From: Aurantimonas aggregata
GTDB lineage: Bacteria; Pseudomonadota; Alphaproteobacteria; Rhizobiales; Rhizobiaceae
Reading direction: 5' to 3'
Assembly: GCF_010500835.1 (NCBI RefSeq)
Contig: NZ_JAAAMJ010000003.1
Span: 1-64,000, forward strand
DNA length: 64,000 bases
The translations under genes and the position numbers were made by a program. Position 1 is the stretch's first letter. Each line of letters begins with the position of its first letter. This document shows positions 1 to 5,451 of the stretch, piece by piece. Under the pieces are notes generated by a model. It saw only the letters and a list, made by a program, of their open reading frames with translations, had not been told where the DNA came from and did not search any database.

Positions 1-87
1 GACTGGATCGAGGATTATTGCGAGGTCCACCCGCACTCAGGATTAAAGTTCCGCTCGCCGCGCGAGTTCATCAGGCTCAGTGCCTAA
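1..87 (+). CDS. IS3-family transposase OrfB, C-terminal 28 residues (truncated by window edge)
   Basis: Reading frame 1 is open from the first base and ends at TAA 85-87. The residues include DWIEDYCEVHPHSGLKFRSP followed by REFIRLSA. This matches the conserved tail of IS3-family integrase-type transposases (a WIxxYNxxRPHSxLxxxSPxEF pattern), which comes after the catalytic DDE glutamate. The catalytic residues lie outside the window, so activity cannot be judged. The family assignment is firm; the subgroup (IS407/IS51-like) is a guess. Confidence 0.75.
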   Translation, partial: DWIEDYCEVHPHSGLKFRSPREFIRLSA

Positions 88-127
88 ACCCAACCGCCGC
101 TTGTCCGGCGAAATGGGGTGCACTCCA
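1..127 (+). mobile_element. Right end of an IS3-family insertion sequence
   Basis: The first 87 bases encode the C-terminus of an IS3-type OrfB transposase. About 40 bases later there is an end-like sequence whose outer edge reads GGGGTGCACTCCA, which is TGGAGTGCACCCC from outside in. IS3-family elements usually have TG...CA termini and GTCCGG-type inner bases, and GTCCGGCG is seen at 103-110. The rest of the element lies left of the window, so the matching end and target duplication cannot be checked. The exact outer boundary at 127 is an inference. Confidence 0.7.
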
Positions 128-364
128 GGCCTTTTTTGCGATGATCCGTGCCACCGACTCAAGTCGTAGCATCAACCTAAGGAATAGCCAAAGCATTTCC
201 TTGTGTATAAATCTGACCGTAGCCGTCTTCAGTAGGCCCCAGAGACGTGATTGGTTTTTACGCTTACGCTAGTGCGGACACTGTATTCAAGGCGCACAGC
301 GGCCGTGGTCTCTCGGTCACAAGAGAAATCCTTAATACCAAACGCTGGAAAGGTACTGCTAGAC

Positions 365-976
365 ATGGCCGATACTCGAGACGCCTGGTCGGCATTTTTA
401 AGCCCAGACGTAGTTCGCTTGAAGCTTATCTCCGCCGGCCTGTTCCTGATTGGCCACGAAATGCTGGTCGACTCGATACAACGCCACCTTCGATCCTTCT
501 ATGCAGACGAATGGACAAAGGAGGGGCCAATTCCGGGCCCTGAATACGAGACCAAGGTGCTCGCTTTGGATCCGAGAGGGAAGAAAAATCCCGTGCGCGG
601 GTCCATCGCTTGGCTGCGCCAAAGGGAAGCGATCAACAGTGACGACGAGGCCGCCCTACGAAAGGTGACCGACGCTCGGAACAACATCGCTCACGAGATG
701 TCGTCAATGGTCAGTGCAGCGGACATGCCTGACTTCCTTGGCGAGTTTCAGACAATGATGTCACTTCTCAACAAGATCGAGCGTTGGTGGATCGTCAATG
801 TCGAACTTCCGACCGACCCCGACTTCTGCGACAAGGAAATTGACGAAGATGGCATCGTTCCAGGTCCAGCGTGGATCATGCACATGCTATCGCAGGTCGC
901 GTTGGGTGAAAAAGATGAGGCATGGGAGCTCCACCGTTTGTTTACGGAACAATGGCCAAGTCAAAATGGACGCTAG
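365..976 (+). CDS. Hypothetical protein with a HEPN-like R-x4-H motif
   Basis: The protein has 203 residues if it starts at ATG 365 (MADTRDAWSAF). Upstream in-frame starts from 251 exist, but the sequence they add is low-quality. It is soluble and mostly helical, with no signal peptide or membrane segment. The motif ARNNIAHE lies near residue 115 and has the R-x4-H spacing of HEPN nucleases and HEPN-fold partner proteins, with flanking helices that fit a four-helix bundle. No family is recognised with confidence. It stands alone between an IS3 end and the carotenoid cassette, and its codon use and base composition are less GC-biased than those of its neighbours, which suggests acquisition. 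Alternatively it could be an unrelated helical protein with a chance motif. Confidence 0.6.
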   Translation: MADTRDAWSAFLSPDVVRLKLISAGLFLIGHEMLVDSIQRHLRSFYADEWTKEGPIPGPEYETKVLALDPRGKKNPVRGSIAWLRQREAINSDDEAALRKVTDARNNIAHEMSSMVSAADMPDFLGEFQTMMSLLNKIERWWIVNVELPTDPDFCDKEIDEDGIVPGPAWIMHMLSQVALGEKDEAWELHRLFTEQWPSQNGR

Positions 977-1074
977 TTGTTTGTCTCACGGTGCCTCTTA
1001 AGAACGGCGGCATGACTTCCGAAGTGTCCTATCCGGTTGGGGCGACCTCGCACTGCCCAGCGCCGCCAGCGCTC

Positions 1075-1250
1075 CCACCTTCCGCCCCCACCGCCGAACC
1101 TGCTATGCCCCGGCGATGACCACCCCCGCCCCCCGCAGCGCCGTCTATGGCGCGCCGCCCGTTGATCTCGTGGAGGTGGCCGAGGGCGCCGTGCAGCTGT
1201 CGCCGCTGCGGCCCGGCGCCGAGGCGCTGGAGGCGCTGCCGGATGCCGCC
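1075..1250 (+). repeat. Left copy of a ~176-bp direct repeat flanking the carotenoid cassette
   Basis: This segment aligns without gaps to 3771-3946 at a constant offset of 2696 bases. It covers about 40 bases of upstream sequence plus the first 45 codons of the RsmC-like methyltransferase. The copies differ at scattered positions (for example GTGGAG versus GTCGAT after GATCTC), so the duplication is not recent. Similarity stops abruptly after GATGCCGC. Confidence 0.85.
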
Positions 1251-1259
1251 GGGTCGTAG
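1116..1259 (+). pseudogene. Dead 5' fragment of the RsmC-like methyltransferase gene
   Basis: ATG 1116 opens a 47-codon frame whose residues (YGAPPVDLV, then GAVQLSPLRPGAEALEALPDAA) match the first 45 residues of the intact methyltransferase at 3812 almost exactly. It then runs into GS and a TAG stop. No SAM-binding or catalytic domain is present, so it cannot be functional. The substitutions are mostly conservative, so the fragment probably came from a related full gene that was later lost, not from recent slippage. Confidence 0.8.
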
Positions 1260-1324
1260 GCGAGCGTCTTCCAGTCGCTAACGAGTTGCGCCGCCCGCCC
1301 CGCAGGCGCCCCTCCTGCCACCCC

Positions 1325-1867
1325 TCAGTGCCTCACCGGCGCGTGGGCCGAGCCCTGCGCTGTCACCGAGCGGTCGATGCGTTCGCGGTCGAGGACGCCC
1401 GAGCGGCGCAGCTCGGCCTTCAGCTTGTCGATCGGCGGGGCGTAGAGGAAGCCGAAGGAGACGCAGTGGTCGCGCCCCTCGACGGCGTGATGCAGCCGGT
1501 GCGCCTGCACGAGGCGCTTGGCGTAGCCGCGATGCGGCACGTAGCGGAACGGCCAGCGCTGGTGCACCAGCCCGTCATGGGCGACGAAATAGAGCAGCCC
1601 GTAGAGCGTGATGCCCCAGGCGACCGCGAGGATCACCGGCGACAGCGCCTCGCCCACGAAGAACAGCGCGATGGCCATCAGGCTGAACACCACGGCGTAG
1701 AGATCGTTCTTCTCGAAGAAGCCCTCGGTCTCCTCGTGGTGGGATTTGTGCCAGCCCCAGCCGCTCTGCCCGTGCATGACGAATTTATGCATCGTCCAGG
1801 CGAACCCCTCCATCAGCACCACGGTGCCGAGGACGATCAGGGCGTAGAGGATGATCTGAAATAACAT
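1325..1867 (-). CDS. crtZ: Beta-carotene hydroxylase CrtZ
   Basis: A 180-residue membrane di-iron hydroxylase that adds 3- and 3'-hydroxyl groups to beta-ionone rings (beta-carotene to zeaxanthin, canthaxanthin to astaxanthin). The start is ATG 1867 (MLFQII), giving the normal CrtZ length of 160-180 residues. The histidine clusters of the fatty-acid-hydroxylase superfamily are visible in order: HKFVMHG, HKSHH, an AHDGLVH segment and HRLHHA, separated by hydrophobic helices. It lies on the opposite strand to crtW, with the DUF2585 gene between them. No promoter is obvious. The family assignment is secure. Confidence 0.93.
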   Translation of the reverse strand: MLFQIILYALIVLGTVVLMEGFAWTMHKFVMHGQSGWGWHKSHHEETEGFFEKNDLYAVVFSLMAIALFFVGEALSPVILAVAWGITLYGLLYFVAHDGLVHQRWPFRYVPHRGYAKRLVQAHRLHHAVEGRDHCVSFGFLYAPPIDKLKAELRRSGVLDRERIDRSVTAQGSAHAPVRH

Positions 1868-1992
1868 GGCGGCCCTGCAGGTTGCGGCACGCGCTGCGGC
1901 GCGTCCCAATCCGTTCCAATATGGCGACGACGACGGGGACTGCCAAGCGCCGCGGGGCGCGTGCAATCGGCGCAAGCAGGCGCCGGACCGGC

Positions 1993-2601
1993 TCAGACCA
2001 GGCGGAGCACCCGCAGCGTGCCGAGCAGCAGGCCGTCGTTGATCGACCAGAGTAGCACGATCTCGATCACGGCGGCGGCCAGCAGCGTGAGGCGCCAGCC
2101 GAGCAGCCGGGCGAGGAAGAAGCCTATGACGACGAAGGCGGTATCGCTCAGGGAGTTGACGATGCTGTCGCCGGCGTAGGCGCCCGGCTGGCTGGTTTCG
2201 TTGAACAGGGCGATCACCGGCGGCGTGTTCTCGACGATCTCCCACGCGGCGCTGCCGAGGACGACGACCACCAGCTTGGACCGGGCCGGCCAGAACGGCT
2301 TCAGCCAGTCGACGAAGACGAAGAGACCCGCGCCGAACAGCAGATGCATGAGGGAATAGGGATCGGCCAAATGCTGGGAGTTCGACACGAGCTCGAAGCT
2401 CGTGCTCCACAGCCGCAACGGTTCGTGGGGCGGCACGAAAGGCCGGCCGAACAGCCAGAGCGTGCCCACCACCAGGCCATTGGCCGCAAGGCAGATCAGC
2501 AGGCACAAGGCGAGCGACGGCCCGCCGGCTCTCGCGGACCCCTTGGTCGCGAGCGTGTCGAGCGGGTCGAGCGCAGGAGTGTCGGACGGCGTCTGGGTCA
2601 T
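1993..2601 (-). CDS. DUF2585 (UPF0314) membrane protein
   Basis: A 202-residue protein with about five hydrophobic segments. It carries the motifs GSAAWEIVEN, LFNETS and GDSIVNSLSDT, which typify the DUF2585/UPF0314 family of alphaproteobacteria. The biochemical function is unknown. It is read in the same direction as crtZ (125 bases apart) and divergently from crtW (168 bases between starts), so it may be co-transcribed with crtZ. The family call rests on these conserved motifs; a role in carotenoid biology would only be a guess from context. Confidence 0.85.
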   Translation of the reverse strand: MTQTPSDTPALDPLDTLATKGSARAGGPSLALCLLICLAANGLVVGTLWLFGRPFVPPHEPLRLWSTSFELVSNSQHLADPYSLMHLLFGAGLFVFVDWLKPFWPARSKLVVVVLGSAAWEIVENTPPVIALFNETSQPGAYAGDSIVNSLSDTAFVVIGFFLARLLGWRLTLLAAAVIEIVLLWSINDGLLLGTLRVLRLV

Positions 2602-2769
2602 GCGTGGATGAATATGGGAGGATCGGCGAAATGTTCATGCGCGATGCCGCCGCCGATCCGCAAGCCGTCAACAGAAATTGCCGGAGCCGATGGCTGCGGG
2701 CAGCCGGCAGGGCGGACGAAACGCCGCATGCGGCTTTCCGGAAGGGCGCCCGGGTTTAAGTCTCGGCGC

Positions 2770-3558
2770 ATGAGTGTCGACATCGTCTCCAGCGGCCCCG
2801 CTTCCCGACCCGCCGTCAGGCCCGCCGGGCCGCGCCTGCGCCCGTTCCAGGCAGCCATCGGCCTGACGCTGGCCGCCTGCGTGCTGCTCGCCTGGGCCGC
2901 GATCCATGTCGGCGGCGTGTTCTTCTTCGACGTTCGGTGGTCGACCATCGTCTTCGTGCCGATCCTCGTCGCGGTCCAGTGCTGGCTCACCGTCGGAATG
3001 TTCATCGTCGCGCACGATGCCATGCACGGATCGCTGGCGCCCGGATGGCCGCGGCTGAACGCCGCCATCGGCGCGTTCATCCTGACCATCTACGCGGGCT
3101 TTGCCTGGCGCCGGGTGCGCGACGCGCACATGGCCCATCACGACAAGCCGGGCACGGCCGAGGATCCGGACTTCTTCGTCGACGAGCCCGATCGCTTCCT
3201 GCCCTGGTACCGCGCCTTCTTCCTGCGCTATTTCGGCCGGCGCTCGATCGTCTTCGTGTTCACGGTGGTGGGTGCCTACATCCTGCTGCTGGGCGCCCCG
3301 GTGCTCAACGTCGTCCTGTTCTACGGGGTGCCGTCGCTGCTGTCGTCGCTGCAGCTGTTCTATTTCGGCACGTTCCGGCCGCACCGGCACGAGGAGGAGG
3401 GCTTCGTCGACCGGCACAATGCAAGGTCGAACGAGTTCGGCTACCTCGCCTCGCTCCTCACCTGCTTTCACTTCGGCTACCACCACGAACACCACGACGA
3501 GCCGTGGGTGCCCTGGTGGGGCCTGCCGGCGCAGTGGCGGCAGGCCCGGTCGTCCTGA
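2770..3558 (+). CDS. crtW: Beta-carotene 4-ketolase CrtW
   Basis: A 262-residue membrane di-iron oxygenase that introduces 4- and 4'-keto groups (beta-carotene to canthaxanthin, zeaxanthin to astaxanthin). ATG 2770 (MSVDIVSSG) gives the usual bacterial CrtW length; the longer open frame upstream lacks family similarity. The histidine boxes are clear: HDAMHG, AHMAHHDKPG followed by DPDF, and FHFGYHHEHH near the C-terminus, set among four or so membrane helices. Together with crtZ it makes an astaxanthin end-module. The genes that make beta-carotene (crtE, crtB, crtI, crtY) are not in this window. Confidence 0.93.
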   Translation: MSVDIVSSGPASRPAVRPAGPRLRPFQAAIGLTLAACVLLAWAAIHVGGVFFFDVRWSTIVFVPILVAVQCWLTVGMFIVAHDAMHGSLAPGWPRLNAAIGAFILTIYAGFAWRRVRDAHMAHHDKPGTAEDPDFFVDEPDRFLPWYRAFFLRYFGRRSIVFVFTVVGAYILLLGAPVLNVVLFYGVPSLLSSLQLFYFGTFRPHRHEEEGFVDRHNARSNEFGYLASLLTCFHFGYHHEHHDEPWVPWWGLPAQWRQARSS

Positions 3559-3770
3559 CGCGCACTACAAGCCGGCCGATCGTGACGACCTGACGCCCAC
3601 TGGCCTTCATCCTCCCCGCGCCACCCGCGGCACGTCTGCGGCCGCGATAGCCTCACTTCCCGCCGGGCGACCGGCTGGCGGCGATCCGACCATCGGCCCG
3701 GCAGTAGCGGCGTCGCATGCGCGTCGCATGCGCGTCGGGCGCGATGGCACGGCCGGCGACCTGTCGCCGC

Positions 3771-3946
3771 CCGCCTTCCTCCCCCACCGCCAAAGCTGCT
3801 ATGTCCCGCCGATGACATCCCCCACCCCCCGCAGCGGCGTCTATGGCGCGCCGCCCGTTGATCTCGTCGATGTGCCCGAGGGCGCCGTGCAGCTGTCGCC
3901 GCTGCGGCCCGGCGCCGAGGCGCTGGAGGCGCTGCCCGATGCCGCG
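3771..3946 (+). repeat. Right copy of the direct repeat, within the intact methyltransferase gene
   Basis: This is the partner of 1075-1250 at an offset of 2696 bases. It contains the upstream region, the start codon and the first 45 codons of the functional methyltransferase. The two copies bracket a 2.5 kb block holding crtZ, DUF2585 and crtW. Confidence 0.85.
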
Positions 3947-4720
3947 CTGGAGGACATCGTCGTCGCCGCGCCGCCCGGCTCGATCGAGCGGCGCTTCGTG
4001 CTGGCGCAGGCGCTGCGGGCGCTGGTCCCAGGCGGCGCGCTGACCGTGCTGGCGGCCAACGACAAGGGTGGCCAGCGCCTGCGCGGCGAGCTCGAAGCCT
4101 TCGGCTGCAGCGTCGCCGAGCGGTCCAAGGCCCGCCAGCGCATCTGCACCGTCACTCGGCCGGACGCGCCGACAGGGCTCGACGAAGCGCTCGCGGCGGG
4201 CGGGCCGGTCATGGTCGAGGGGCTCTGGTCGCAGCCGGGAATCTTCTCGTGGAACCGGGTTGATCCCGGAACGTCCCTGCTGCTCGCCCATCTGCCGAAG
4301 CTCGCGGGCCGCGGCGCCGATCTCGGCGCCGGGATCGGCATCATCGCCGCGGCCGTGCTCGCCGCCCCGGCCGTCACGGAACTGACGCTGGTCGAGATCG
4401 ACCGCCGCGCCGTCGAAGCCGCAAAGGCGAACATCGCCGACGAGCGCGCCCGGTTTCTCTGGGCCGACACCCGCGAGGCGGCGCTTGCCGATCTCGACTT
4501 CGTCGTCTCCAACCCGCCCTTCCATGCCGAGGGCATCGAGGATCGCGGCCTCGGCCAGGCCTTCATCGCGGCCGCCGCCGGGATGCTGCGCCGCTCCGGC
4601 ACGCTGCATCTCGTCGCCAACCGCCACATGCCCTACGAGGCGGTGCTGCGGGCGAAGTTCAAGAGCGTGAAGACCGTGGCGGACGTCTCCGGCTACAAGA
4701 TCTTCGAGGCCCACAAATGA
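3812..4720 (+). CDS. RsmC/RlmG-like class I SAM-dependent rRNA methyltransferase
   Basis: A 302-residue protein starting at ATG 3812, chosen because the duplicate copy is conserved from the same point. The C-terminal half has a SAM-binding motif I (DLGAGIGIIAA), an acidic loop ending motif II (LVEID) and the catalytic NPPFH motif of N2-guanine methyltransferases such as RsmC (16S G1207) and RlmG. The N-terminal half is a degenerate methyltransferase-like domain, as in that family. Its stop overlaps the start of the next gene by four bases, and that gene encodes an rRNA pseudouridine synthase, so both likely act on ribosomal RNA. The exact target base cannot be told from sequence. Confidence 0.85.
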   Translation: MTSPTPRSGVYGAPPVDLVDVPEGAVQLSPLRPGAEALEALPDAALEDIVVAAPPGSIERRFVLAQALRALVPGGALTVLAANDKGGQRLRGELEAFGCSVAERSKARQRICTVTRPDAPTGLDEALAAGGPVMVEGLWSQPGIFSWNRVDPGTSLLLAHLPKLAGRGADLGAGIGIIAAAVLAAPAVTELTLVEIDRRAVEAAKANIADERARFLWADTREAALADLDFVVSNPPFHAEGIEDRGLGQAFIAAAAGMLRRSGTLHLVANRHMPYEAVLRAKFKSVKTVADVSGYKIFEAHK

Positions 4721-5451
4721 CCAAGGTGCCGACCGCCCGGCTCGACCGGCTGCTGGCCAATCTGGGCTATGCCTCGCGCCGCGAGATCCAGGCGCTGGCG
4801 AAGAACGGCCACATCACGCTCGACGGCGCCCCGCTCACGGCGGCCGACAGGCGGATCGCGCTCACGCCCGACCTCGAGACGCGGCTGGTGGTCGACGGCG
4901 AGGCGCTCGATCCGCTGCCGGGCTTTGCCCTGATGCTGAACAAGCCGCTCGGCGTCACCTGCTCGCGCAAGGAGGCGGGGCCGCTGGTCTACGATCTCCT
5001 GCCCGAGCGCTGGCGCCGGCGCGACCCGGCGATCTCGACGGTCGGCCGGCTGGACAAGGAGACCTCCGGCTTGCTTCTGATGACCGACGACGGCGCGCTG
5101 CTCCACCGGATCATCTCGCCGAAGCGGCATGTGGCCAAGCGCTACCGCGTCGGCCTCGCCCGGCCGCTCACCGGCGGCGAGGCCGACCTCTTCGCCGCCG
5201 GCACGCTGATGCTGGACGGCGAGGAGAAGCCGCTCGCCCCGGCGGAGCTGGAAGTCGTCGGCCCGCAGGAAGCGCTGCTCACGGTCCACGAGGGCCGCTA
5301 CCACCAGGTGCGCCGGATGTTCGCCGCCGCCGGCAACCATGTCGAGACGCTGCACCGGGAATCCGTCGGCGGTCTCACCTTGCCGGCCGACCTCGCGCCC
5401 GGCGCCATCCGCCGCCTCGGCGAAGCCGATCTCGCCGCGATCTTCGCGTAG
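4717..5451 (+). CDS. rsuA: RsuA-family 16S rRNA pseudouridine synthase
   Basis: A 244-residue protein with an N-terminal S4 RNA-binding domain (RLDRLLANLGYASRREI) and a catalytic domain carrying GRLDKETSGLLLMT, which holds the catalytic aspartate, followed by KRYRV and the EGRYHQVRRM motif of the RsuA/RluB/RluF group. It converts uridine to pseudouridine in rRNA. The length and single S4 domain fit RsuA best, though RluB or RluF specificity is possible. It is translationally coupled to the upstream methyltransferase through an ATGA overlap. Confidence 0.85.
   Translation: MTKVPTARLDRLLANLGYASRREIQALAKNGHITLDGAPLTAADRRIALTPDLETRLVVDGEALDPLPGFALMLNKPLGVTCSRKEAGPLVYDLLPERWRRRDPAISTVGRLDKETSGLLLMTDDGALLHRIISPKRHVAKRYRVGLARPLTGGEADLFAAGTLMLDGEEKPLAPAELEVVGPQEALLTVHEGRYHQVRRMFAAAGNHVETLHRESVGGLTLPADLAPGAIRRLGEADLAAIFA

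Follow-up and report, generated by a model that had tools for sequence, protein, structure and literature searches.

Carotenoid genes between two copies of an rsmC gene start in Aurantimonas aggregata: a probable case of one-ended recombination with a close relative

Introduction

How does a metabolic gene cassette come to lie between two copies of the start of a single housekeeping gene? The question is raised by a stretch of DNA from Aurantimonas aggregata (NCBI RefSeq assembly GCF_010500835.1; 4.86 Mb in 95 contigs), namely bases 1-64000 of contig NZ_JAAAMJ010000003.1 (C23), hereafter the window. Near its left end a beta-carotene hydroxylase-type gene (crtZ), a gene for a DUF2585 protein and a beta-carotene ketolase-type gene (crtW), together referred to as the cassette, are bracketed by diverged direct copies of the promoter region and 5′ end of an RsmC-like methyltransferase gene (rsmC). 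A previous sequence-only reading of the window put forward two routes to this arrangement, either entry of the block from a related donor by one homologous and one illegitimate crossover, or partial duplication. Comparison across the genus partly supports that interpretation: the best explanation, to which we give a probability of roughly 0.6, is one-ended homologous recombination with DNA of a close relative at a hot spot between nth and rsmC.

The mechanism is already known, and the Aurantimonas locus is a new instance of it with unusually complete traces. In a study in Escherichia coli, a diagnostic polymerase chain reaction product was obtained from 56 of 60 Lac-minus clones, 14 of these 56 were sequenced, and the duplications of 109-950 bp found in these 14 clones were ascribed to single crossovers of circles (PMC3240628). 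Other reports propose that one-ended recombination sequentially displaces effector loci of the Vibrio cholerae type VI secretion system (PMC5361080), propose illegitimate recombination for small variable segments (PMC2884548), and describe hotspots of horizontal transfer driven by recombination in flanking core genes (PMC5635113). Literature searches on Aurantimonas and carotenoids returned no title or abstract opening that describes the present locus.

Materials and methods

The comparison set consisted of eight genomes of the genus Aurantimonas, including the genome holding the window (G000), the nearest species compared (G001 and G003), A. manganoxydans SI85-9A1 (G005) and A. coralicida DSM 14790 (G007). 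Repeat searches used a seed of 14 and reported copies of 80 nt or longer. Several of the small-sample tests reported below share the same few sites.

Results

The two copies of the rsmC 5′ end are 176 nt long, have a spacing of 2696 nt and are 92% identical (14 mismatches in 176), each consisting of 42 bp of upstream sequence and 134 coding bp (Table 1). The sequence-only reading had placed this segment on both sides of crtZ-DUF2585-crtW at 1075-3946, which the repeat search confirmed to within one base. Apart from this pair the search, which can miss copies with indels or with less than about 65% identity, reported no direct repeat of 80 nt or longer in the window, and it reported no inverted repeat. 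A chance origin of the pair is excluded, because it is the only direct repeat of this length reported in 64 kb. The left copy is dead and the right copy intact, as had been claimed: the reading frame of the former starts with an ATG at 1116 and runs for 47 codons to an in-frame TAG at 1257-1259, and the latter opens a complete frame. The tract of 61 identical bp within the repeat (left equivalent 1180-1240) is a possible site of the crossover, or of a future excision. Since the copies share this tract in the same reading frame, loss of the cassette by recombination between them appears plausible.

Table 1. Features at the left end of the window (GC3, GC content at third codon positions)
Feature	Position	Strand	Basis
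3′ end of an insertion sequence (IS) truncated at the contig start: C-terminal part of the transposase (1-87), terminal inverted repeat (about 96-134)	1-134	+	
Protein of 203 aa, no family match, low GC3 (0.64), in the foreign interval left of the stub	365-976	+	Pfam, PADLOC, NCBIfam
Left copy: rsmC upstream region and first 44.7 codons, dead stub, probably the native 5′ end	1074-1249	+	Repeat search, relatives, tree
crtZ, beta-carotene hydroxylase type, intact	1325-1867	-	PF04116; 92% aa identity to A. coralicida, A. manganoxydans
DUF2585 protein	1993-2601	-	PF10755, E 5.9e-33; 77-78% aa identity to A. coralicida, A. manganoxydans
crtW, beta-carotene ketolase type, intact	2770-3558	+	PF00487; NCBIfam NF045690
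Right copy: start of the live rsmC (upstream region, first 44.7 codons), probably donor-derived	3770-3945	+	Repeat search, tree
Intact RsmC-like methyltransferase gene, 302 aa	3812-4720	+	PF05175 MTS, E 5.4e-47; 91% aa in G001, G003
61 bp identical in both copies	3876-3936	+	Mismatch list
Pseudouridine synthase, native downstream neighbour, common to G001, G003, G005, G007	4717-5451	+	S4 and PseudoU_synth_2 domains; shared DNA

Among the eight genomes, five carry the RsmC-like gene, each with one full copy, and the extra stub is confined to A. aggregata; a DNA search with the stub (40 candidates scored per genome) returned, beyond rsmC and the stub itself, short matches only, with E values of 1.2e-6 or weaker. 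In G001 and G003, rsmC is single and other genes stand upstream of it; both sites thus lack the cassette but are not empty. This agrees with the earlier claim that the block was inserted next to the gene, and the repeat at both edges, together with these cassette-free sites, gives the homology to the insert on one side of the locus that is expected of one-ended integration. Close matches to CrtW were found in three of the eight genomes, i.e., A. aggregata and, at 83-84% identity, A. manganoxydans and A. coralicida; G001 and G003 gave weak matches at 33% only and hold no orthologous crtW, and across all 40 genomes searched there were matches at E 0.001 in seven. In A. manganoxydans the cassette and rsmC share a contig, about 2.7 Mb apart, and in A. 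coralicida they are on different contigs; in both species the cassette adjoins an MFS-type transporter gene (named from its translation).

It is the left copy that resembles the relatives. Over the 176 bp it shows 8 differences from G001 and 10 from G003, compared with 16 and 19 for the right copy, 14 between the two copies and 11 between G001 and G003. At sites where G001 and G003 agree and the copies differ, the base of the sister species stands in the stub nine times and in the live copy once (p = 0.021), and a maximum-likelihood tree places the live copy outside the stub, G001 and G003 with a bootstrap of 86%. These moderate statistics support a native-like stub. We read the stub as probably the gene's own original end, and the promoter and start of the live gene as probably having arrived with the insert, because a home-made duplication would make stub and live copy each other's closest relatives. 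On the same distances and tree, partial tandem duplication was rejected as the principal reading; of the two routes originally proposed, the related donor fits better, since the tree joins the left copy to the sister species and leaves the right copy outside.

A second trace lies in the carotenoid cluster elsewhere in the genome. Strong matches to crtY and crtB are present in all five species compared (A. aggregata, G001, G003, A. manganoxydans and A. coralicida), in a cluster that includes crtE, fni, crtI and crtX (gene names read from translations). Between crtE and crtB, G001 and G003 have an intact crtZ that is 64% identical to that of the window. The native crtZ of A. aggregata (C12:112980-113435; L092 4981-5436) survives as a remnant in which the histidine motifs are altered and the frame is broken by two frameshifts and an internal stop, and changes found in A. 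aggregata only fall at codon positions 1 and 2 in 16 of 37 cases in this remnant vs three of 27 in the adjoining crtE (p = 0.006). The other cassette carriers, A. manganoxydans and A. coralicida, gave no second crtZ match and have about 100 bp between crtE and crtB. As working genes, the cassette and the native crtZ are therefore mutually exclusive in five of five species, and the crtZ tree separates cassette type from native type at 100/100. From these sequences the incoming crtZ seems to have replaced the native one, with arrival preceding decay as the order of events that we infer.

The cassette occupies an interval of variable content. In A. aggregata, G001 and G003 conserved sequence extends to the end of nth and resumes at rsmC, with different genes between. 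The nth of A. aggregata is on contig C6, which probably adjoins the window through the IS element at 1-134, as inferred from the gene order in G001 and G003. The window opens inside one end of this element, and its other end seems to lie at the end of C6: the inverted repeat matches the last bases of C6 in 32 of 41 alignment columns; such elements are often present in multiple copies, which weakens the join. Its transposase end matches PF13683 (rve_3) at E 0.001 with a score of 19.2 bits, which does not reach the Pfam threshold of 26.5, and we take the element to belong to the IS3 family. On C6 the interval of A. aggregata includes a UvrD-like gene (L058 14263-16191) whose best PADLOC match is GajB and whose best NCBIfam match is PcrA helicase, the latter far below its cut-off, and that of G001 includes an OLD-like AAA ATPase gene (L014 6833-8893). 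This GajB-like helicase and OLD-like ATPase are possible phage-defence genes. In G003 the interval holds TrkA/TrkH-type, PAN-domain, AraC-type and short-chain dehydrogenase genes.

The TrkA/TrkH pair of potassium-transporter genes in G003, at the opposite edge of the interval, is itself bracketed by copies of a gene end, here the 3′ end of nth (L015 5215-5365 and 7581-7731; 151 nt, 87% identity, spacing 2366). The pair was compared at positions that differ between its copies and carry one shared base in G000 and G001. In the first part the native-like state belongs to the intact copy (10 of 10 positions) and in the following stretch to the orphan (five of five), with p = 0.0003, or p = 0.0065 once three discordant sites at the very end are included; the boundaries of this test were picked after the sites had been viewed, so these p values are optimistic, and the five orphan sites lie within 10 bases. 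The switch is consistent with the pattern that a single crossover would leave. Taken together, the nth-rsmC interval is best read as an insertion hot spot that collects foreign DNA.

Several searches were directed at a donor or an earlier site. Trees of crtW and crtZ had been suggested as a means of finding the donor, and neither names one: window crtZ groups with A. coralicida and A. manganoxydans, with Tianweitania inside (87/91), and the crtW tree leaves the window gene without a resolved placement. A plasmid origin of crtW was also rejected, the plasmid-borne records being three only and below 60% identity. Searched across the genus, the sequence separating crtW from the right copy gave, beyond its own place, only two partial matches of 71% and 82%. 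Close copies of the MFS-type gene next to the A. coralicida cassette stand at two places in A. aggregata (C2:39412-40620 and C45:202279-203487) and at one each in G001 and G003, and in the four stretches around these copies nothing else of the A. coralicida site was found except a 111-bp match of 69% in one. Among ten named crtW loci, crtZ and crtW are close together in nine; DUF2585 separates the two genes in A. coralicida, A. manganoxydans and Fulvimarina, and was not found in the five Aureimonas loci. The window's cassette shares this closeness of crtZ and crtW with those of other Aurantimonadaceae and differs in its chromosomal site, with rsmC adjoining.

As to the genes themselves, window crtZ matches PF04116 (FA_hydroxylase) with 41.5 bits (cut-off 31) and has no NCBIfam match; the histidine motifs expected of this type were visible in the translation, our choice of the catalytic ones among them being an assumption. 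The ketolase-type protein matches NF045690 (CrtW) with 222.6 bits over positions 24-254 of 257, below the cut-off of 350, and is accordingly termed CrtW-like; its sole other NCBIfam match is at E 0.00095. The RsmC-like protein contains the MTS domain, scores 88.8 bits against NCBIfam RsmC (equivalog cut-off 295) and has small-subunit ribosomal RNA methyltransferases as its best solved relatives. Its downstream neighbour is presumably a pseudouridine synthase of RluB type. The protein at 365-976 had no match in Pfam, PADLOC or NCBIfam at E 0.001. A gene-transfer-agent gene (PF13547) is present in all eight genus genomes. In A. aggregata it occurs twice (C15:45096-45992 and C2:90934-91800) in shorter frames of 493 and 721 aa; the frame is 1294-1297 aa in six other genomes of the genus and short in A. 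manganoxydans (723 aa, C1:1234915-1235787).

Discussion

We propose that a fragment from a closely related Aurantimonas-like lineage, on which crtZ-DUF2585-crtW lay beside the promoter and 5′ end of rsmC, paired with the 5′ end of the native gene. A single homologous crossover would then have set the donor promoter and start on the native rsmC body, and the fragment's far end would have become attached to the native 5′ end through a non-homologous joint at codon 45; non-homologous joints are often located at short microhomology. The native promoter and first 45 codons would remain on the far side as the dead stub. The new crtZ would make the copy between crtE and crtB redundant and so lead to its decay, and crtW would add ketolation to the pigment made. 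The pairing of one homologous with one illegitimate joint in the sequence-only reading fits this anatomy; the illegitimate joint was not seen directly and the donor was not found.

A number of observations weigh against this account. The comparison of left and right copies draws on 14 sites, giving moderate support, and the pair shows no clean switch point, unlike the nth pair of G003. The nth orphan of G003, taken as a whole, differs from G000 and G001 at 22 and 19 of 158 positions and the intact gene at 14 and 11; because the orphan is overall the less similar of the two, it does not constitute a second native-like stub. At fourfold sites the cassette diverges from A. manganoxydans and A. 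coralicida by 0.32-0.39, as compared with 0.27-0.49 for 11 other genes, which is no mark of transfer, and its GC3 of 0.92-0.93 is host-like, such that neither composition nor synonymous divergence gave a signal of foreign origin. Set against the crtZ changes of the other two species themselves (nine of 30), the codon-position difference in the crtZ remains is not significant (p = 0.32), so that the case for decay relies mainly on the frameshifts and the stop. Furthermore, the cassette adjoins rsmC in none of the ten named crtW loci (stretches of up to 10 kb, in a collection that may leave out records of the window's own genome), and hence no donor was found.

A further reservation concerns the extent of donor-like sequence beyond codon 45. 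Past the repeat and up to 4460 there are 15 informative sites, nine of which put A. aggregata outside G001 and G003, and after 4460 six of 27 do, but such a tract is not significant when the breakpoint is searched (133 of 1000 shuffles did as well). In the carotenoid cluster, used as a control, A. aggregata is the outsider at 109 of 379 informative sites; runs as extreme as that of the 13 sites following the repeat in rsmC (8 of 13) are found in seven of 367 cases, and runs of 20 with at least 14 in none of 360. A crossover boundary inside rsmC was suggestive in a first count, which took in the upstream region and columns by a 12-nt gap close to the start codon (a few sites change with where this gap is set), and not significant in a stricter count without the upstream region and gap columns, which is the version relied on.

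Within one-ended recombination, the incoming DNA could have been either a linear fragment joined illegitimately at its far end, by homology-facilitated illegitimate recombination, or a fragment ligated to a circle and integrated by one crossover. A donor tract past the repeat, as the site counts on the two sides of 4460 would mean if taken at face value, is allowed by the linear form only; such a tract is not significant in the shuffles, and in the E. coli work one-ended substrates mostly gave duplications through circles (PMC3240628). Given one-ended recombination, we place the chance of the linear form somewhat below even.

As to its source, the cassette could stem from an unsampled close lineage of Aurantimonas, or could be ancestral and relocated, and the native-like stub favours the unsampled lineage. 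Under the relocation alternative, the cassette was ancestral to Aurantimonas and in this lineage changed its place in the genome to a site beside rsmC, part of the gene's 5′ end being duplicated at the join, and it was lost in G001 and G003. A cassette divergence equal to that of other genes and the grouping of window crtZ with A. coralicida and A. manganoxydans both speak for such a history. However, the left copy is closer to G001 and G003 than to the right copy, contrary to a home-made duplication, and no trace of the cassette was seen in the 16-kb stretches around the two MFS-type genes of A. aggregata; on balance we consider this history unlikely.

A site-specific element, such as a tyrosine-recombinase island using the rsmC 5′ end as its attachment site, would account for direct repeats at both ends of the insert and for a variable site. 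None of the three insert genes encodes a recombinase, as an integrase-borne island would require, and ARAGORN found no transfer RNA gene in the window; in addition, the copies have diverged and the footprint in G003 uses another gene end, that of nth, all of which makes this explanation very improbable. Carriage by an IS element, to which the IS3-type end at 1-134 might point, is barely credible, as that end lies outside the stub, about 0.9 kb off with an unrelated gene between, and no transposase gene was found among the open reading frames examined on the other side of the cassette.

One-ended recombination with a close relative may also be part of a wider process, in which the nth-rsmC interval would grow by repeated events of this type, each swapping the end of a flanking housekeeping gene for that of the donor and leaving a partial copy of it within the interval, the rsmC 5′ end in A. 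aggregata and the nth 3′ end in G003, such that stubs would chronicle one gene arrival after another, with replacement of crtZ and addition of ketolation as one outcome and gene transfer agent particles as possible carriers of the fragments. We regard this extension as doubtful.

Comparison with known systems places the locus among several of them. It shares with homology-facilitated illegitimate recombination and with single crossover of ligated linear DNA the one-ended homology, the additive integration and the partial duplication beside the insert; it differs from the E. coli plasmid experiment in being a natural case, inferred from a diverged footprint, that concerns a metabolic cassette (PMC3240628). 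As in V. cholerae, an incoming module would anchor by homology, with an illegitimate far joint (proposed there), and push aside what is left of the old locus. The parts displaced there are effector ends and immunity genes, whereas here it is a housekeeping 5′ end, and the functional loser, crtZ, is on another contig (PMC5361080). With hotspots of horizontal transfer it has in common variable content between conserved neighbours, homologous exchange in a flanking gene and no need of a mobile element, but here one flank is involved and content is added (PMC5635113).

If our account is correct, the locus is a natural trace of a type of recombination that has been studied mainly by experiment, in which the genome still contains the gene end that was displaced as well as the dead native crtZ, whose function was displaced. 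A live housekeeping gene of A. aggregata would then be running from a foreign promoter and start, with the native ones lying dead nearby. A systematic search for gene-end stubs of this kind could gauge how frequently one-ended recombination adds genes to hot spots.

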